A stretch of 64,000 bases of DNA from Arthrobacter sp. NEB 688 (GTDB lineage Bacteria; Actinomycetota; Actinomycetes; Actinomycetales; Dermatophilaceae), in contig NZ_CP053707.1 of the NCBI RefSeq assembly GCF_013201035.1, positions 248,001 through 312,000 on the forward strand, read 5' to 3'. Of this stretch, positions 6,680 to 50,754 are shown piece after piece. The notes beneath the pieces are model-generated. The model was not told the origin of the DNA. It was given only the letters and a program-made list of their open reading frames with translations, and ran no database searches. Numbering within the stretch: position 1 is the stretch's first letter; each line of letters begins with the position of its first letter. Position numbers and translations under genes: made by a program.

Positions 6680-7372
6680 GTGATGCGCAAGGCCTACCAC
6701 GAGGAGCTCGACCGGATCGCCGAGAGCCTCGTCGAGATGACCCACCTCGCGGCGTCGGCGATGAGCCGCGCGACGACCGCCCTCCTCGACGCCGACGTCA
6801 GCCTCGCCGACTCCGTCATCGCCGCCGACGCCGAGATCGACCGGATGCGCGAGCAGGTCGACCTGCTCTCCTTCGACCTCATCGCGCTCCAGCAGCCCGT
6901 CGCCACCGACCTGCGGGTCGTCGTCACGAGCATGCGGATGAGCAGCGACATCGAGCGGATGGGCGACCTCGCCCGCCACGTCGCCAAGGTCGCGCGCCTG
7001 CGCTACCCGGCGTCGGCCGTGCCGGCGGAGCTGCGCGGCACCTTCCGCGAGATGGGGACCGTCGCCGAGCTCGTCGTCGAGAAGGCGGGCTCCGTCATCG
7101 CCGCGCGCGACGTCGACGCCGCCCGCGACGTGGCCCGCGAGGACGACGCGATGGACCGCCTGCACCGCGCCCTCTTCACGCACGTGACGGGCAGCGACTG
7201 GCCGCACGGCACCGAGACCGCCGTCGACGTCGTCCTGCTCGGCCGGTACTACGAGCGGTTCGCCGACCACGCGGTGTCCGTCGCCGAGCGCGTCATCTGG
7301 ATCGTCACCGGCGAGTGGGGCGACGAGGCCGCCGGCGGTCACGACGAGGTGTCCGACCACACCGTCGTGTGA
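6680..7372 (+). CDS. phoU: Phosphate transport regulator PhoU
   Basis: PhoU links the Pst transporter to the PhoR/SenX3 kinase and keeps the Pho response off when Pi is plentiful. The 230-residue protein shows the two three-helix PhoU repeats: the first has ADAEIDRMREQVDLLSFDLIALQQPVA and the second DAMDRLHRALF followed by YYERFADHAVSVAER. The repeats carry the metal-ligand ExxD/DxxxD residues. GTG 6680 or the next codon, ATG 6683, could be the start. It is divergent from senX3 and followed 56 bp later by ppk2. Confidence 0.93.
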   Translation: MMRKAYHEELDRIAESLVEMTHLAASAMSRATTALLDADVSLADSVIAADAEIDRMREQVDLLSFDLIALQQPVATDLRVVVTSMRMSSDIERMGDLARHVAKVARLRYPASAVPAELRGTFREMGTVAELVVEKAGSVIAARDVDAARDVAREDDAMDRLHRALFTHVTGSDWPHGTETAVDVVLLGRYYERFADHAVSVAERVIWIVTGEWGDEAAGGHDEVSDHTVV

Positions 7373-7428: not shown

Positions 7429-8346
7429 GTGGACGAGCAGCAGCGCCGGTCCGTGACCGAGGACTACGTCGAGGAGCTCGACGAGCTGCATGAGCTCGAC
7501 GAGACCGCAGATGCGGGGGCATCCCGTCCGGGCAAGGCCTGGCAGCACGGCTACCCGTACGACACCAAGCTCCCCCGCGACGAGTACGAGCGGACCAAGC
7601 GCCGGCTGCAGATCGAGCTGCTCAAGCTCCAGCTGCACGTCAAGGAGACCGGCGGCAAGGTGCTCGTCATCTGCGAGGGCCGCGACGCCGCCGGCAAGGG
7701 CGGGGCCATCAAGCGGTTCATGGAGCACCTCAACCCGCGTGGTGCGCGGGTCGTCGCGCTCGAGAAGCCGACCGAGGTCGAGACGACGCAGTGGTACTTC
7801 CAGCGCTACGTCCAGCACCTGCCGAGCGGCGGGGAGCTCGTCTTCATGGACCGCTCCTGGTACAACCGCGCCGGCGTCGAGCGGGTGATGGGCTACTGCT
7901 CCCCCAGCCAGTACCTCGAGTTCATGCGCGAGGCGCCCGAGCTCGAGCGGATGCTCGTCAACTCGGGCATCCACCTCGTCAAGCTGTGGTTCTCGGTCAG
8001 CCGCGAGGAGCAGGCCGCGCGCTTCGCCTCCCGCCAGAACGACCCGGTGCGCCAGTGGAAGCTCTCGCCGACCGACCTCGCGAGCCTGGACAAGTGGGAC
8101 GCCTACACCGAGGCCAAGGAGGCGATGTTCTTCTACACCGACACCGGTGACGCACCGTGGACGGTCGTCAAGAGCAACGACAGGAAGCGCGCCCGCCTCG
8201 AGGCGATGCGGGTCCTGCTCAGCGGCGTCGACTACGCCTCCAAGGACGTCGGCCTCGTGGGCACCCCCGACCCCCTCATCGTCGGGCCGGCCTCGCGCAT
8301 CTTCGAGCCGGGCGAGCACACCGAGCGGGTCCTGCCGCGCCTCTGA
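7429..8346 (+). CDS. ppk2: Polyphosphate kinase 2
   Basis: PPK2 enzymes transfer phosphate between polyphosphate and nucleoside diphosphates, mostly making GTP/ATP from polyP. The 305-residue single-domain protein has the Walker A-like loop EGRDAAGKGGAIKRF, a Walker B-like FMDRSWYNRAGVERVMG, and the lid region SREEQAARFASRQNDPVRQWKLSP, all typical of class I PPK2. GTG 7429 is six bases after TAGGCT (7417-7422), so initiation is probably leaderless. It sits beside phoU, consistent with a polyP/Pi balance role together with the ppk1 gene about 21 kb downstream. Confidence 0.93.
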   Translation: MDEQQRRSVTEDYVEELDELHELDETADAGASRPGKAWQHGYPYDTKLPRDEYERTKRRLQIELLKLQLHVKETGGKVLVICEGRDAAGKGGAIKRFMEHLNPRGARVVALEKPTEVETTQWYFQRYVQHLPSGGELVFMDRSWYNRAGVERVMGYCSPSQYLEFMREAPELERMLVNSGIHLVKLWFSVSREEQAARFASRQNDPVRQWKLSPTDLASLDKWDAYTEAKEAMFFYTDTGDAPWTVVKSNDRKRARLEAMRVLLSGVDYASKDVGLVGTPDPLIVGPASRIFEPGEHTERVLPRL

Positions 8347-8403
8347 GCGACTGCTCGCCCGGATGTGCTGCACCCACCGGGCCCGGTGGGTGATCATGGC
8401 GGC

Positions 8404-10317
8404 GTGAGGCACGCCGAGGGGGACGAGTTCGAGGGCTTCGTCGCCGCGCGCTGGCCGGCCCTCGAGGCCGTCGCGCTCGCCGTGACCCTCGACCCCGCCG
8501 TGGCGCGCGAGGTGACGACGGCGACCCTCACGGCCCTGCACGGGCGATGGTCGGCCGTCGTCGAGGACGGCGCTCCGACGGCCGCCGCGCGATCCGGGCT
8601 GCTGGCCCGCCTGGACGACCGGGGCCCGCGCGACATCGCGACCTCCGGGCCCCCGGTGCCCCCCGAGCTCCTCGACGCCGCCCGGGACCCGTCCGCCCCC
8701 GCCGACCCCGTGCCCGGGGCGCTGCTCACCGCGCTGGCGGCCGAGCCCGCGTGGGTCCGGGCGCGGCTCGCGGCCGTGACCCTGTGGGAGCTCGTCGACG
8801 ACGAGGTCGCGGCGCTCGCGCCGGCGGGGGGCCGGGCGTCGCGCGGTGGCCGGGACGGGGGCCGGGACGGCGTGCTGGGGGCGCTGGACGACGCGCGCGG
8901 CCGGCTGCTCGCCGCGCACCGCGCCGCCCTCGCCTCCACCGGTTCGGCGCCGGCCGACCACCGGGCCCCGGGCGACCTCGCCGACCTCCTCGACCGGCTC
9001 GCCGCCTCGCTGCCCGGCCCGCCCGCCGCGGACGAGCTCGTGCGCGCCCGGCAGCGCGGCGTGCGCCGCCGCTCGCTCGTCGTCGTCGGAGCCCTCGCCG
9101 TCACCGGGGTCGGTGCGGGCACGTGGGCGATGGCGTCGGGCTCGCCGACCCCGACCGCGGCCTCGCCCCGGGCCCGCCCGGCCCCGTCGACGGCCGGACC
9201 CGACGACCCGGCGTGGGCATCGGCCGACCGCTGGCCCCCGCGGGGGGCGCTGGGTCGCGACCCCGAGGTCCAGGCGATGCTCGCGCGGGTCACGCCCGGG
9301 GCGCGGCTGCTCTTCGCCGACGACGTCGAGGGCCGGCGGCTCGTCATCTCCACCGACCCCCAGGTGCCGTCCGAGAGCGGGCTCGTGCTGCGGGCCTGGG
9401 GCGGCCCGGCCGGCACCTCCCCGCGGCGGCTCACCGACGTGCAGATCGGCTACGGGTGGGCCGGTGACACCCGCGACGCCCTCGCGCTCGCCGTCACCGC
9501 GGGACGCGGCTCCGTGCTCGTCGCGCTGAGCCGCCCGTCCGTGCGCGAGGGCCGCTACTCGCTCGTGGTCCGCCCGACGAAGGACGGCCAGGTCCGGCGC
9601 GAGTGGACGCGCTTCACGCTGCGTGACGGGGTCGCGACGACCGTGCTCGGCCGCGACGCCGGGCCGGCGGCCCGCATCCAGCTGGGCGACCTCGACGGCC
9701 CGCTCGCCCGTGAGCTGACGCCGACCGACATGGGGGTCGGGCCGGGTGGGTTCACCGAGTCCACCGTCCAGGAGATCGCCCGGGCGCTCGGGGTCGCGCG
9801 GCGGTCGCTGACGGTCGAGCGCACGAGCCACGTCCTGCCCGACGACAGCTTCCGGGACGTCCTCGGGGTGAAGGGCACCTCGGTCGCCGACACCGTCGTC
9901 GTACGCACCGCCGAGGGCGCCGTCATCCGGTTCGCCTCCTTCCGGGGCGGCTCGAACGGCGAGTCCGCCGAGTACGGCGACCCACCGCTCGTCGTCCCGG
10001 CGGCCGCCGTCCGGGCGCCGTACGTGGCGGCGCTCATCGGCACCCAGGAGAGGGCCCGCTACTTCGTCACCGTCCCGCAGGGCTCGGCCACGGTCCAGCT
10101 GCGCACCGTGACCGGGGTGGCACTCAGCCGGCCGACGCGGGTCCGGGGGCGGGCCGCGGTGGCGCAGCTCGTCACGGGGACCAACGACGAGGACGTCCGG
10201 GTGGTGGCGCGCGGGGCCGACGGGCGGCTGCTGTACGACGACGTGCCCCCGAAGGGACGCGACGTCTTCGACCTCTACGACTTCTTCGGCACCGGCTCGG
10301 GCACCTACTACAGCTGA
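8404..10317 (+). CDS. Fused sigma-like / anti-sigma-like membrane protein, copy 1
   Basis: This protein has 637 residues from GTG 8404, six bases after a GATCAT hexamer that is repeated at the same spacing before its paralogue. Residues 8-50 (FEGFVAARWPALEAV...ALHGRW) align with region 2 of SigE-family ECF sigma factors such as the one at 48887. A second helical stretch (residues 100-180) resembles a worn region 4. A basic stretch and one membrane segment follow at about residues 219-240 (RRRSLVVVGALAVTGVGAGTW). The remaining 390 residues, starting with a Pro/Ser/Thr linker, would be outside the cell. The key promoter-reading residues of a working sigma factor look lost. The function is unknown; the architecture resembles a sigma/anti-sigma pair joined in one chain. 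Confidence 0.8.
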   Translation: MRHAEGDEFEGFVAARWPALEAVALAVTLDPAVAREVTTATLTALHGRWSAVVEDGAPTAAARSGLLARLDDRGPRDIATSGPPVPPELLDAARDPSAPADPVPGALLTALAAEPAWVRARLAAVTLWELVDDEVAALAPAGGRASRGGRDGGRDGVLGALDDARGRLLAAHRAALASTGSAPADHRAPGDLADLLDRLAASLPGPPAADELVRARQRGVRRRSLVVVGALAVTGVGAGTWAMASGSPTPTAASPRARPAPSTAGPDDPAWASADRWPPRGALGRDPEVQAMLARVTPGARLLFADDVEGRRLVISTDPQVPSESGLVLRAWGGPAGTSPRRLTDVQIGYGWAGDTRDALALAVTAGRGSVLVALSRPSVREGRYSLVVRPTKDGQVRREWTRFTLRDGVATTVLGRDAGPAARIQLGDLDGPLARELTPTDMGVGPGGFTESTVQEIARALGVARRSLTVERTSHVLPDDSFRDVLGVKGTSVADTVVVRTAEGAVIRFASFRGGSNGESAEYGDPPLVVPAAAVRAPYVAALIGTQERARYFVTVPQGSATVQLRTVTGVALSRPTRVRGRAAVAQLVTGTNDEDVRVVARGADGRLLYDDVPPKGRDVFDLYDFFGTGSGTYYS

Positions 10318-10372
10318 GCGGACGGTCCGGCGGCCGTCGACGACGGGCCGGCGCCACGACCACCGGCCCGAT

Positions 10373-10653
10373 GGTGTGCTCTCCCGGCCTCCACCCGGTC
10401 CGGGAGGTCTACCTCCCACCCGGCAAGGTTTCCCGCCACTGCGGGGCGTTTCCCTCCCACCCGGCAAGGTTTCCCCGCCACCGCGGGGCGTTTCCCTCCC
10501 ACCCGGCAACGTCTCCCTCTCACCCGGGAGGTTTCCCTCCCACCAGAGTGGGTTTCCCTGCCGGCGCGGGACGTTTCCTCCCGGCCAGGGACGTCTTGCT
10601 CCCACCCCGGGAGGTTTTCCTCCCAGGGTGCGTGGAGTCCGGGAGAGCACACC
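10373..10653. repeat. 281-bp element: terminal inverted repeats around 11 tandem units
   Basis: The ends are 22-bp inverted repeats (10373-10394 and 10632-10653; core GTGCTCTCCCGG) with one mismatch. Between them, 10392-10623 holds 11 degenerate tandem units of 20-25 bp with consensus CACCCGGGAGGTTTCCCTCC. Two neighbouring unit pairs (10417-10457 and 10458-10499) are nearly identical 41-42-bp blocks. Most units could fold as a small GGGAGG/CCTCCC hairpin. It fills the gap between the two paralogous membrane protein genes. No coding potential is convincing. It may be a terminator array, a MITE-like relic or a regulatory array. Confidence 0.85.
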
Positions 10654-10750
10654 GTCGCCGGCCGGTTCGGACGCGCGCCGCGCTCGACCCGGCGCCCGGC
10701 CGGTGGCGCGGTCGGCCCCACCCGGGGCCGCGGCGGGTGATCATGGGCCC

Positions 10751-12727
10751 ATGACGACGAGCCCGACGGTGGCGGCCGACGACGCCGCCCGCTTCGTCGC
10801 CGCCCGCTGGCCCGACCTCGAGGCCGTGGCCCTCGTCTCCCTCCTCGACCCGGGCGCCGCCCGCGAGGTCACCCTCAGCACGCTCGTCGCGCTGCGCCGC
10901 CGCTGGAGCGAGGTCGTCGAGGACGGTGCCCCCACGGCCACCGCCCGTCGCGACCTGATCGACCGTCTCGCCGCCCACCCGCCGACCGCCCGCCCCCCCG
11001 ACCACACGCACCGCACCGGGCGGCCCACCGCCACCGGCCCCGACGACCTCGCCCGTCCCGCCCCACCCGCCGACCCCGTCCACCCGAGCCTGCGCACTGC
11101 CGCCACCGACCCCGACGACCCGGTCCCGGCCGCCCTCCTCGACGCCCTCGCCGCCTCGACCCGCGCCGAGCGCACCGCCCTCGCCGCCGACGTGCTGTGG
11201 GACGGCGACCTCGCCCCCGGGACCGCACCGGTCCTCGCCGCCACACACGACCGGATGCTCGCCGCCCACCGTGCGGCCCGCGCCGCCGCCGGGCGGGCCC
11301 CGGACGACGCCCGCCTCGACGCCGACCTCGACGACCTGCTCCTGCGCCTCGCCCGCGCCCAGCCCGAACCGCCCGACCCCGCAGCGCTCGTCGACGACCG
11401 CACCCGCCGGGGCGCCCGACGCACCCTCCTCCTGGCCGGCGCGGCGACGGTGGCCGCCGGCGCCGCCGGGTGGGCGCTCCTGCGCCGCAACGGCGCAGCC
11501 ACCCCCACCACCGCCTCCCCCCGCCCCTCCACCGCCCCGACGACCGCCGGCCCGGACGACCCCGCCTGGGCCGACTCCTCGCGCTGGCCCGCCCGCGGCC
11601 CGCTGCGCGCCGACCTCGGCATCCAGGCCCTCGTGGCGCGGGCCGGCGCCGGCACGCGCCTGCTCTGGGCCGGCGACCTCGACGACACCCGGGTCGTCAT
11701 CGCCTCCTCCCTCCTCGGCGAGCGAGCCGACAGCACCTCCGTGCGCGTGTGGACGGGCCGCTCCGGCGCCGCCGCCGAGGACCTCGACGAGACCCCCCTC
11801 GGGTTCGACGCCGTCCTCGGGGTCACCGACGTCGTCGCCGTCGGGGTCGAGCGTGCGGACGACGCCGCCCTCGTCGTCCTCACCCGGCCCACCGTCGAGT
11901 CGGCCCGCTTCTCACCGTTCGTGCGGCCCACGAGCTCCGGTGCGGTGCAACGCGACTCGCGGCCCATCCGCCTGCGCAACGGAGTCGGCGCCCTCACCCT
12001 GCGACCCTGGGGCGTCGCCGGGCGCCTCGCCTGCGGTGCCTACGACGGGCCGCCGGTCGCCCCCCGGGCGTGGGGCGACGGCACGCTCACCTCGCTCACC
12101 GCGTCCCCGCTCGACGGCCTCCTCGACCAGGTCGCCTCCGCCACCGGCCTCGCCCGCGAGGACCTGCGCGGCGAGGTCCTCTGCGACTCACCGGTCGTCG
12201 GCAGCGTCCTCGACACCGCCGCGGACTCCCCCACCGGCGGCGACGGCCGCGTCGTGCTCTCGAGCGTCCGCCTCCCCGGGGGCGGGGTCGTGCGCCGGCT
12301 CGACGTCCGCGACGACGGCCGCTCCGGGCGCAGCGGCTTCCTCGTCGTCCCCGCCGTCGCCGTACCGGCCGAGCTCGCCGACGCACCGGCGGTCTACCGC
12401 CTCGACGACGACCCGCCCGGCACCGGCCGCTACCTCGTCGTCGTCCCCGGCGGCGGGTCCACCTGCCAGCTGCTCGCGACGAGCCCCAACGCCTACCCGG
12501 TCTCCAAGGTCACGCCGATGAAGCGGCGCACCGCGGTCGTCTCCGTCGTCAACGCCGACGACGCGGCCGCGTTCCGCCTCGTGGTGCGCGACGCCGGCGG
12601 CCGCCTCACCTACCGGGGCGTCCCGCCGGTCGGGCGCGACCTCCTCGGCGACGAGGACACCGGCTGGCTCGGGCTGCCGGCGCGCGGCAGCCGCGACACC
12701 GTCCCGGTGCTGCCGAACCCGGCCTGA
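10751..12727 (+). CDS. Fused sigma-like / anti-sigma-like membrane protein, copy 2
   Basis: This 658-residue protein is a tandem paralogue of the gene at 8404. Shared blocks include RFVAARWPDLEAVAL near residue 14, SEVVEDGAPTATAR, MLAAHRAARA, the membrane segment near residue 230 (RRTLLLAGAATVAAGAAGWALL), the linker ending TAGPDDPAWA, and a C-terminal domain ending with GGRLTYRGVPPVGRDL. The ATG at 10751 is six bases after GATCAT, the same layout as copy 1. The N-terminal 60 residues resemble sigma region 2 but lack the charged surface expected of an active factor. Copy 2 has a more proline-rich insertion before the region-4-like part. Its function is unknown. Confidence 0.8.
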   Translation: MTTSPTVAADDAARFVAARWPDLEAVALVSLLDPGAAREVTLSTLVALRRRWSEVVEDGAPTATARRDLIDRLAAHPPTARPPDHTHRTGRPTATGPDDLARPAPPADPVHPSLRTAATDPDDPVPAALLDALAASTRAERTALAADVLWDGDLAPGTAPVLAATHDRMLAAHRAARAAAGRAPDDARLDADLDDLLLRLARAQPEPPDPAALVDDRTRRGARRTLLLAGAATVAAGAAGWALLRRNGAATPTTASPRPSTAPTTAGPDDPAWADSSRWPARGPLRADLGIQALVARAGAGTRLLWAGDLDDTRVVIASSLLGERADSTSVRVWTGRSGAAAEDLDETPLGFDAVLGVTDVVAVGVERADDAALVVLTRPTVESARFSPFVRPTSSGAVQRDSRPIRLRNGVGALTLRPWGVAGRLACGAYDGPPVAPRAWGDGTLTSLTASPLDGLLDQVASATGLAREDLRGEVLCDSPVVGSVLDTAADSPTGGDGRVVLSSVRLPGGGVVRRLDVRDDGRSGRSGFLVVPAVAVPAELADAPAVYRLDDDPPGTGRYLVVVPGGGSTCQLLATSPNAYPVSKVTPMKRRTAVVSVVNADDAAAFRLVVRDAGGRLTYRGVPPVGRDLLGDEDTGWLGLPARGSRDTVPVLPNPA

Positions 12728-12757: not shown

Positions 12758-13495
12758 TCAGCGACCCTGGTTCGCCACCGCCGCGGCAGCGGACGCCGCG
12801 GCCTCGGGGTCGAGGTACTCACCCGGGCCGGTGGGCATGAAGTCGTCACCGAGCCGGTAGACGAGCGGCATCCCGGTGGGGATGTTCAGCCCGGCGATGT
12901 CGTCGTCGCTGATGCCGTCGAGGTGCTTGACGAGGGCGCGCAGGCTGTTGCCGTGCGCCGTCACGAGGACGGTGCTCCCCGCCGCGAGGTCGGAGCGGAG
13001 CTCGTTCTCCCAGTAGGGCATCATCCGCGGGATGACGTCGGCGAGGCACTCGGTGGCCGGCACGTCGACCCCGGCGTAGCGCGGGTCGCCGGCCTGGTCG
13101 AACTCGCTGCCGGCCGCGATGGGCGGCGGCGGGGTGTCGAAGGACCGACGCCAGAGCATGAACTGCTCGTCGCCGTACTTGTCGCGGGTCGCCGCCTTGT
13201 CGAGCCCCTGGAGGGCGCCGTAGTGGCGCTCGTTGAGGCGCCAGCTGCGGTGCACCGGCACCCAGTGGCGGTCGCACGCGTCGAGCGCGAGGTTGGCCGT
13301 CGTGATCGCGCGGCGCAGGACCGAGGTGTGGACGACGTCCGGCAGGAGGCCGGCGTCACGCATCAGCTGGCCGCCGCGCACGGCCTCCGCACGCCCCTTC
13401 TCGGTGAGGTCGACGTCGACCCACCCGGTGAAGAGGTTCTTCTGGTTCCAGTCGGACTCGCCGTGGCGCAGGAGGATCAGCGTGTGCTCCGTCAT
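12758..13495 (-). CDS. gpmA: 2,3-bisphosphoglycerate-dependent phosphoglycerate mutase
   Basis: This glycolytic enzyme interconverts 3- and 2-phosphoglycerate. The 245 residues are full length for the dPGM family. The catalytic [10 protein letters not shown] (His near residue 11) is at the N-terminus, the [10 protein letters not shown] loop follows, then [14 protein letters not shown], and the second catalytic His is in [19 protein letters not shown] 13495 is six bases after a minus-strand TAGGCT (13502-13507), so it is probably leaderless. Its neighbourhood with mshA, a YbjN gene and senX3-regX3 recalls the M. tuberculosis Rv0486-Rv0491 order. Confidence 0.95.
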
Positions 13496-48886: not shown

Positions 48887-49405
48887 ATGGCGGATCGCGA
48901 GGCGTTCGACGCCTACGTGCGCGAGCGGTGGGGCCCGCTGCTGCGCACGGCCGTCCTGCTGACGGGCGACCGCCACTCCGCGGAGGACCTCGTGCAGGAG
49001 ACGCTGGTCCGTGCCGCGCAGCACTGGAGCCGGGTCGACCCGGCGACGCCCGACGCCTACGTCCGCCGCATCCTCTACACGCGCTCGGTCGATGCCTGGC
49101 GCTGGCGACGCCATCAGCCGGACCCGGTCGACTCCTCCACCGAGGGACGCACCCCGCGGTCGCACCCGTCCGACGACGCCGACGTCCGCGTCACGCTCGA
49201 GGCGGCCCTGCGTCGCCTCACCCCGCGGCAGCGCGCGGTCCTCGTCGCCCGCTTCTACGAGGACCGCACGGAGGTCGAGACCGCGCGGGTGCTCGGCTGC
49301 TCCGTCAGCACCGTCAAGTCCCAGACCCGGCACGCCCTCGAGCGGCTGCGCGTCCTCGCGCCCGAGCTCGCCGCCACCTTCGGACGGGAGGGGAGCCTGC
49401 GATGA
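48887..49405 (+). CDS. SigE-family ECF RNA polymerase sigma factor
   Basis: Region 2 of this 172-residue protein (FDAYVRERWGPLLRTAVLLTGDRHSAEDLVQETLVRAAQHW) and region 4 (LTPRQRAVLVARFYEDRTEVETARVLGCSVSTVKSQTRHALERLR) are intact, as in the actinobacterial SigE family. The stop overlaps the start of a membrane partner, the usual sigma/anti-sigma arrangement. The two fused proteins at 8404 and 10751 look like relics of the same two-gene design. Confidence 0.92.
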   Translation: MADREAFDAYVRERWGPLLRTAVLLTGDRHSAEDLVQETLVRAAQHWSRVDPATPDAYVRRILYTRSVDAWRWRRHQPDPVDSSTEGRTPRSHPSDDADVRVTLEAALRRLTPRQRAVLVARFYEDRTEVETARVLGCSVSTVKSQTRHALERLRVLAPELAATFGREGSLR

Positions 49406-50754
49406 CCCCCGACACCCTGACCACCGCCCTCCAGCACCTCGTGGACGGCGTCGACGACGCCTCCGGGCCGGCGCCCGAGGCACTGTGGGCCGGCGGGCGA
49501 CGCCGCCGCCGGGCCGCACGCGCCGTCCCCCTGCTCGCGGCCGCCTGTGTGGCCGCGCTCGTCGCCCTCCTCGCGTGGCCGGCCGGCTCCCCGCGGGCCG
49601 CGGTCCCGGCCGTCCGCGTCGACGACGGTCCCGTCCGCTTCACGTCCTACCCCGGCGCGATCCCGAAGCCGCCCGTCGTGACCGAGACCTCGACGCCCGG
49701 GACCACCGCGGCCGTCGTCCTGGGCGAGGACCCGGCCCGCCCGTGGGTCGTCTCCCCCACCGGGCAGGTGCGACGTCTCGTCCTCGACACCGACGTGCCG
49801 GTGCCCACGGAGGCCGGCCCGTCGCTGTCGCCGGACGGCCGGTGGCTCGCCCGCGGCCCGGTCCTCACCGACCTGCGCACCGGCACCACCGTCCCCGGGC
49901 TCCGCGCGCGCTCGACGCTCGAGCGCCGGTGGACGCCGCCCGAGCAGCCCGCCTTCTGGTCACCCGACTCCTCGCGCGTCCTCGTCGCCGGCGTGAACCA
50001 GGGCATCCCGGTGTCGGTGGGCGTCGTCGTCGCGACGGACGGCTCGACCGCCGACGCGCCCCTGGTCGACGACGCCGTCCAGCCCGTCGTCGCCGGATGG
50101 CTGGACGACGACACCGTGCTGGCGCTGCAGCCCTCCGGCTCCCCCACCGTGCTGGACCTCTACCGCTGGACCGTCGGCGACCCCACCTGGACCCCGACCG
50201 GCGCGACCGTCTCGTGGGGCGACCCCGAGGCCCCGGGGATGCGTGCCGACCTTTCCCCCGACGGCACGCGGCTGCTGCTCACCCAGGGTGAGGTCGACCC
50301 CGACAGCGGCGTGATCGCCGGGACCCACGCGATGCTCTTCGACACGCGGACGGGTCGAGGGCTCGGGCAGCCGTCGCCCGACGGAACCCTGGACCCCGCT
50401 CACTACCTGCAGGGGTCGTTCTTCGGCTGGGACGGGTGGGGCTGCCGGCCGGCCTGGAAGGACGGGCTGCCCGTCCACGCCGACGGGGACGTGGCGGGGT
50501 TCGTCGAGGACCCCGGCGCGCGGTACTCGGGCCGGTCGGGCTCCGCCTTCGACCTCGTCGCGGTCTCGGCTCTGTACGACGGAGCGTGTGTCTCGTTCGC
50601 GGGCAACGAGCTCCGCGGCACCCCGCAGGTCGACACCCGAGCCGTCTGGACCGAGCGACTCGTCCGGTGGGGTCCGTGGGTGCTGCTCGGCTTCGCGGTC
50701 GTCCTGGTCGTCCTGTGGCGCCGTCGCCGACGTCACCCGGTGCGGATGTCGTGA
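49402..50754 (+). CDS. Membrane partner of the SigE-family sigma factor
   Basis: This 450-residue protein has a short cytoplasmic helix pair (LTTALQHLVDGVDDASGPAPEALWAGGRRRRRA), a membrane segment near residue 45, an outer domain of about 350 residues with PD40/WD-like blades (GPSLSPDGRWLARG, AFWSPDSSRVLVAG, MRADLSPDGTRLLLTQG), and a second membrane helix near the C-terminus (WGPWVLLGFAVVLVVLW). It probably holds or releases the sigma factor in response to an external signal. ATG 49402 overlaps the sigma stop (ATGA). Confidence 0.85.
   Translation: MTPDTLTTALQHLVDGVDDASGPAPEALWAGGRRRRRAARAVPLLAAACVAALVALLAWPAGSPRAAVPAVRVDDGPVRFTSYPGAIPKPPVVTETSTPGTTAAVVLGEDPARPWVVSPTGQVRRLVLDTDVPVPTEAGPSLSPDGRWLARGPVLTDLRTGTTVPGLRARSTLERRWTPPEQPAFWSPDSSRVLVAGVNQGIPVSVGVVVATDGSTADAPLVDDAVQPVVAGWLDDDTVLALQPSGSPTVLDLYRWTVGDPTWTPTGATVSWGDPEAPGMRADLSPDGTRLLLTQGEVDPDSGVIAGTHAMLFDTRTGRGLGQPSPDGTLDPAHYLQGSFFGWDGWGCRPAWKDGLPVHADGDVAGFVEDPGARYSGRSGSAFDLVAVSALYDGACVSFAGNELRGTPQVDTRAVWTERLVRWGPWVLLGFAVVLVVLWRRRRRHPVRMS

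Follow-up and report, generated by a model that had tools for sequence, protein, structure and literature searches.

Sigma factors that carry a membrane regulator in the same polypeptide are already known. Fusions of this kind are described for the extracytoplasmic function (ECF) groups ECF36, ECF48, ECF52, ECF53 and ECF243 (IutY), and they are presented as sigmas that proteolysis controls or is expected to control, with the extensions of ECF48, ECF52 and ECF53 said to hold a zinc-finger domain (PMC8999054). Degenerate contacts to promoter and core are likewise described for the sigma domain of the alphaproteobacterial response regulator PhyR (PMC8103513). A third point of reference is provided by the SigE-family operons (NCBIfam model TIGR02983), in which a sigma factor and its membrane partner are encoded by two genes, with regions 2 and 4 intact and a score above the curated cut-off. 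Here we consider two tandem genes in a 64,000-nucleotide stretch of the genome of Arthrobacter sp. NEB 688 (positions 248,001 to 312,000 of NZ_CP053707.1, referred to below as the window), a genome of 4.08 Mb in a single contig (labelled G000). Both encode a membrane protein with a sigma-like head, which appears to have arisen by fusion of such an operon and to have lost its transcriptional function.

Each of these proteins resembles the ECF48/52/53/36/243 fusions in uniting a sigma domain and a membrane regulator in one chain, but those fusions are described as working, regulated sigma factors, whereas core- and DNA-contact positions have been lost from the heads considered here. No zinc-finger (ZAS) domain was among the 9 Pfam families listed as matches for 31 fused members at E 0.1. 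The likeness to PhyR would lie in the degenerate contacts, which homology and residue loss suggest for our heads; unlike PhyR, our head shares a chain with its own membrane partner, and Pfam scans of both copies and the 31 fused members found no PhyR-type receiver domain. With the SigE-family operons the fused proteins share the order of parts and, at the locus described below, a homologous outer domain. The first-pass annotation of this DNA had remarked that no such family was described. That is too broad in light of the ECF/membrane-regulator fusions, described as working sigmas (PMC8999054); for the narrower case, a literature search (titles and abstract openings) listed no conserved, apparently transcription-dead single-chain sigma/anti-sigma fusion. 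Sigma/anti-sigma fusions and sigma mimics are thus known separately, and what would be new is their conserved and recurrent combination.

Results

Two tandem proteins with a sigma-like head

As the first-pass annotation had recognized, the two plus-strand genes, copy A (8404..10317, 637 aa, GTG start) and copy B (10751..12727, 658 aa, ATG start), encode proteins with parts in a common order: first the sigma-like head, then a basic pre-membrane segment and a single hydrophobic helix, and last a large outer domain. The copies are 39% identical. In copy A, a part resembling sigma region 2 (residues 1-70, 8404..8613) is followed by a region 4-like part recognized by profile alignment only (residues ~100-172, 8701..8919), which contains a Gly/Arg-rich stretch close to the recognition-helix position, then by the basic segment (residues ~185-224, 8956..9075), the helix (residues 225-243, 9076..9132), and the outer domain (9133..10314). 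Copy B has a region 2-like part at 10751..10975, a shortened region 4-like remnant at approximately 11114..11278 (placed by the residue-table alignment), a helix at residues 226-244 (11426..11482), and an outer domain at 11483..12724. The helices are the strongest hydrophobic windows of the two proteins (mean hydropathy 1.78 in A and 1.83 in B), called from hydropathy alone, without a dedicated membrane predictor; the sigma-like head would lie on the cytoplasmic side of the membrane and the sensor domain outside.

A minus-10-like box, GATCAT, precedes each start by exactly 6 nt (8392..8397 and 10739..10744). The pattern NANNNT occurs at this distance in 21 of the 27 fused genes examined, versus 7/540 other upstream positions, and in 3/9 intact sigma genes (some of whose starts are guesses). 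Because the spacing recurs among fused genes, it supports the called starts at 8404 and 10751, and both copies are probably transcribed leaderless.

The head is sigma-derived and joined to its partner

Several comparisons connect the heads to SigE-family sigma factors. TIGR02983 matches the region 2 part only, in copy A at residues 3-67 (E 9.3e-7, 28.9 bits) and in copy B at residues 10-77 (E 6.3e-4, 19.7 bits), both far beneath the curated cut-off of 141.55 bits, whereas an intact orthologue of the locus (L045) scores 169.9 bits. At E 0.01, the model matches 26/31 fused members. The alignment of the heads to the intact SigE-family sigma factor at 48887..49405 of the window (plus strand, TIGR02983 155.1 bits, above the cut-off), on which the first-pass annotation had relied, is reproduced by BLASTP at E 4e-4 (A) and 0.005 (B), each E applying to a single comparison. 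A Pfam scan of both proteins found no sigma domain, and Pfam Sigma70_r4_2 at E 0.1 matched 2/31 fused members.

Profile comparison provides the firmer connection. With hhalign, 17 heads from the genus align to 16 intact SigE-family sigmas at prob 97.8 and E 9.5e-13 over 160 columns spanning regions 2 to 4, bearing out the proposed region 4-like part that Pfam had failed to find, and 15 heads from other genera reach prob 99.3; the best of 50 column-shuffled controls reached prob 1.8. A profile built from fused proteins only, which we call A2, aligns to the 48887 sigma at prob 97.0 across 151 columns and, when searched against the PDB, returns sigma chains (FliA, E 1.7e-4; ECF SigE, E 0.004). 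At the junction, the fused pre-membrane segment matches the N-terminus of separately encoded partners (prob 91.8, E 7.3e-7, 42 columns), as had been proposed from the letters of one such partner. That the proteins descend from a sigma factor and arose by fusion is, on these alignments, almost certain.

The unfused counterpart lies beside gpm in sister genera

The phosphoglyceromutase gene gpm, to the right of copy B, served as an anchor (matched in 116/119 family genomes), and the interval beside it was read in relatives. In 13 genomes of 4 genera, this interval holds an unfused pair, a SigE-family sigma gene and a separate outer-domain gene, agreeing with the earlier proposal that a sigma/partner operon had fused. 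In 12 of these 13 a single open frame encodes the sigma, which in G196 is divided between two frames; in G021, the contig ends before phoU. In the split pairs read, the partner gene begins inside the end of the sigma gene. Split and fused outer domains align along their length, with 21-44% identity to the first row and 12 invariant columns. The split state is probably the older one, since a working sigma factor would not be expected to re-evolve from such heads, and the split partner, by its overlapping operon and membrane helix, is a putative anti-sigma factor.

The first-pass annotation had taken the sigma factor at 48887 and its overlapping membrane partner (49402..50754, plus strand) for the intact version of the fused proteins. 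We reject this candidate: the partner's outer domain is unrelated to the fused one (prob 5.9 over 13 columns), and the pair is merely a paralogue, useful for comparison, the true counterpart being that at the same locus in sister genera.

Many contact-region positions are lost while much of the fold core is kept

To compare residues, we tabulated positions common to at least 15/16 intact sigmas (12 beside gpm and 4 elsewhere, leaving out G196 for its two frames) in 32 fused heads. The fused set leaves out G132, whose head lies in another frame than its outer part, G002, cut by a contig end, the relics in G165 and G091, and the L154 and L156 proteins; within it, G117 is missing its N-terminus at a contig end, and G133 and G147 have uncertain start codons. 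The fused heads keep W49 (31/31), P58 (32/32), R119 (31/32), and D30 (30/31), together with W17 (29/31), R63 (28/32), and A34 (28/31). Lost are Q39 (0/31), L27 (0/31), E35 (1/31), D36 (4/31), V38 (4/31), Y61 (0/32), and W73 (0/20), and likewise K147 (0/32), S148 (0/32), Q149 (1/31), and R152 (0/32). F9 (21/31), P115 (18/32), and G140 (18/29) are among the intermediate positions. Where a role is given to an individual residue, as for the Gln of region 2.2, it is in part general background on sigma factors. At the level of regions, 2.1/2.2 serve the beta-prime clamp, and the minus-35 element is served by parts of region 4 (PMC7406223). Much of the fold core thus appears to be retained, and many positions in the regions contacting core polymerase and DNA appear to be gone. 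The table agrees with the earlier suggestion that the sigma part had lost its transcription residues, and an actual loss of sigma activity is very probable on this pattern.

The head is under constraint, and the duplication is old

Using a simple method on GC-rich genomes, we obtained dN/dS values below 1 in both the head and the outer part in 8/8 fused pairs (region 2 part, 0.15-0.68; linker plus region 4, 0.24-0.88; outer part, 0.12-0.49); split partners gave 0.34-0.64 (4 pairs), comparable to the fused proteins. Because of this constraint in all eight pairs, the head appears repurposed, not decaying, and the description of the proteins as decayed in the first-pass annotation is not supported, W49 and P58 also being kept.

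Both copies are present in G000, G003, G010, and G005. Copy B of these four genomes forms a clade with support 100/98 and copy A one with support 98/92; because the copies fall into separate supported clades, the duplication that had been proposed is old, with the paralogues splitting before the species. Fused and split genera interleave (7 changes each; labels 20 fused, 14 split, 26 none, and 1 relic, the 14 split including the relic G091), so that one fusion and several are indistinguishable within this lineage (lineage I). On the outer-domain tree, 2 changes are needed, and a single branch separates the fused rows from the rest in 4% of 200 bootstrap trees.

A second fused lineage has an unrelated outer domain

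The A2 profile also uncovered a second fused gene in the same genome, at G000:C1:3256987-3258756 (L153:1988-3757, minus strand), whose product combines a sigma-like head and a helix with an outer domain of another kind, showing no relation to that of lineage I (prob 0.1). This lineage II is found in 11/12 genomes of the genus (G008 has no match, and that in G002 lacks the head), and G011, where lineage I is absent, carries two lineage II genes in tandem. The lineage II outer domain matches a split partner in G027 (prob 99.8), where a fused copy lies directly upstream of an intact sigma/partner pair; the fused head of G027 groups with three intact sigmas of the lineage II kind (SH-aLRT 97), deep support in the head tree being weak. 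Over 13 rows (G009 left out; G032 and G022 sit on long branches, their outer domains at 25-27% identity), lineage II has lost Q39, Y61, W73, and K147 (0/13 each) and kept W49 (12/12), P58, R63, and R119 (13/13 each). Unlike in lineage I, E35 is kept in 9/13 heads. Because lineage II shows like losses beside an unrelated outer domain, fusion with residue loss most likely happened at least twice.

Distribution and related loci

Members from the genus were found first with full-length copy A, and the remaining ones via the outer domain. Within the genus, copy A is matched in 11/12 genomes, in part only in G002 and not in G011. The partner profile matches 43/186 genomes and 13/53 genera of the family, three of the 43 (one genus) being covered only over about the first 75 positions; in the order sample it matches 17/297 genomes, of which only 8, all of one family (f16) and weakly, lie outside the family. 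In the class sample, A2 matches 112/197 genomes at 1e-10, and by profile match alone most of the matches listed span about positions 3-161, that is, the head; in G475, for example, a head-only match covers profile positions 2-161 (E 4.7e-24). A PDB search with the outer domain gave weak matches only (best E 0.01), and a single-sequence search of the genome contigs collection found no relative. Six related loci occur in the named collection, from Phycicoccus jejuensis, Phycicoccus sp. HDW14, P. sonneratiae, Nostocoides sp. Soil756, a Dermatophilaceae metagenome-assembled genome, and Kineosporia rhizophila.

Several loci merit separate mention. Relics of the outer-domain gene, without an intact sigma, lie between phoU and gpm in G165 (L123:3168-3956) and beside gpm in G091 (L037:1634-2908, a frameshifted partner). 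In another family, G496 encodes a fused pseudo-sigma whose outer domain is related (L154:2457-4346; TIGR02983 E 6.1e-8). G538 (L156:2-4246) has a sigma-like head that shares one reading frame with a hydrophobic stretch and an additional domain, and in our reading its region 2 is partly kept and its recognition helix altered. At L155:2253-3530 (G577), a frame change within sigma region 4 joins the start of an otherwise good sigma to the partner frame, which may be a fusion captured at an intermediate stage or else an error of sequencing. Kineosporia rhizophila has two SigE-family sigma/partner pairs in tandem (L140:3956-8091), the first sigma sharing 44% identity with the copy A head across 59 residues.

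In the window, the fused genes lie between phoU (6680..7372, plus strand, TIGR02135 E 1.9e-56) and polyphosphate kinase 2 (7429..8346, plus strand, TIGR03707 E 2.4e-110; a neighbour in some genomes) on one side and gpm (12758..13495, minus strand, NF010718 E 3.1e-131) on the other, and the phoU/gpm neighbourhood is retained across much of the family sample read. Between the two copies, at 10400-10625, is a tandem array of ~21-bp units with the consensus CCGGGAAGGTTTCCCTCCCAC, which has near matches elsewhere in the genome (for example, at G000:C1:1990047-1990126).

Discussion

We propose that an ancestral SigE-family sigma gene and the overlapping gene of its membrane partner, presumably an anti-sigma factor, were joined into one reading frame, and that the sigma part then shed positions meeting core RNA polymerase and the minus-10 and minus-35 DNA while the core of its fold largely stayed. 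The product would sit in the membrane with the sigma-like head inside and the former sensor domain outside, and the head would bind the pre-membrane segment of the same chain, forming a sigma/anti-sigma unit that stays closed permanently. Serving a receptor as its cytoplasmic module, this unit would give its output through protein–protein binding and not transcription. Ancestry, fusion, residue loss, constraint, and recurrence emerge from the sequence comparisons themselves, and the closed docking is what we would expect from them; the complete proposal, a single-chain membrane receptor with a closed, transcription-dead unit, we give about an even chance of being right.

A number of observations weigh against this proposal. 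Five of the 31 fused members lack a TIGR02983 match, and region 4, detected by profile and not by single-sequence search, is poorly kept in the window copies. Positions in the contact regions are not all lost (R75 is kept in 14/20 heads and R156 in 23/32), and several are intermediate. The head changes faster than intact sigmas (dN/dS 0.10-0.26, 5 pairs), indicating weaker constraint. Topology and docking are based on hydropathy and homology, and the two split partners scanned were named by neither family library.

Among the alternatives, the one that fares best, though unlikely, is a membrane-tethered sigma mimic, in which the signalled head binds the anti-sigma segments of paralogous SigE-family pairs and frees their sigmas, in the manner of PhyR and NepR. 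G000 does hold other SigE-like sigmas, with 21 TIGR02983 matches at E 1e-5, but the model at this threshold also matches in 8/14 control genomes, so that not all 21 belong to the SigE family, and 3 exceed the cut-off among the matches listed. PhyR offers a precedent, its degenerate sigma domain being described as titrating an anti-sigma factor (PMC8103513), and the NCBIfam PhyR model weakly matches one fused member (E 0.0042) and the lineage II protein (E 0.0045). However, class I anti-sigma factors bind the region 2.1/2.2 and region 4 surfaces (PMC7406223), which is where residues are lost here, and the head already has its own partner segment in cis.

It is improbable, more so than such mimicry, that the head is a decaying leftover and the outer domain alone matters. 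The faster change of the head, the shortened region 4 of copy B, and dN/dS values of up to 0.88 in the linker plus region 4 would fit such decay, but W49, P58, R119, and D30 are near-invariant in 32 members with long branches, and a second lineage has a like pattern. Titration of RNA polymerase by the head, suggested in the first-pass annotation, has a sigma-derived head in its favour and is very improbable because region 2.2 positions are lost from almost every member (Q39 0/31, E35 1/31, D36 4/31). Least credible is a working sigma set free from the membrane by proteolysis, as for IutY and as expected for ECF52: the order of sigma, pre-membrane segment, helix, and outer domain is identical, and such fusions are described (PMC8999054), but contact positions for core and DNA are lost across 32 members and region 4 is eroded in the window copies.

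Returning to the closed-receptor proposal, a practical consequence is that such proteins are unlikely to be sigma factors despite a sigma-model match in their first 70 residues, and their annotation calls for caution. At least two lineages with unrelated outer domains, together with the fused copy beside an intact pair in G027, raise the possibility, which we hold tentatively and somewhat short of even, that actinomycetes repeatedly convert sigma/anti-sigma operons into a class of single-chain membrane signalling receptors, through fusion at the overlapping stop and start, loss of contacts, maintenance and duplication, and a new signalling role. Present-day stages (split, fused beside split, fused alone, and duplicated) can be compared, making these steps testable. 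If the proposal is true, it shows how a transcription factor can merge with the protein that presumably inhibits it into a single membrane protein with no role in transcription.

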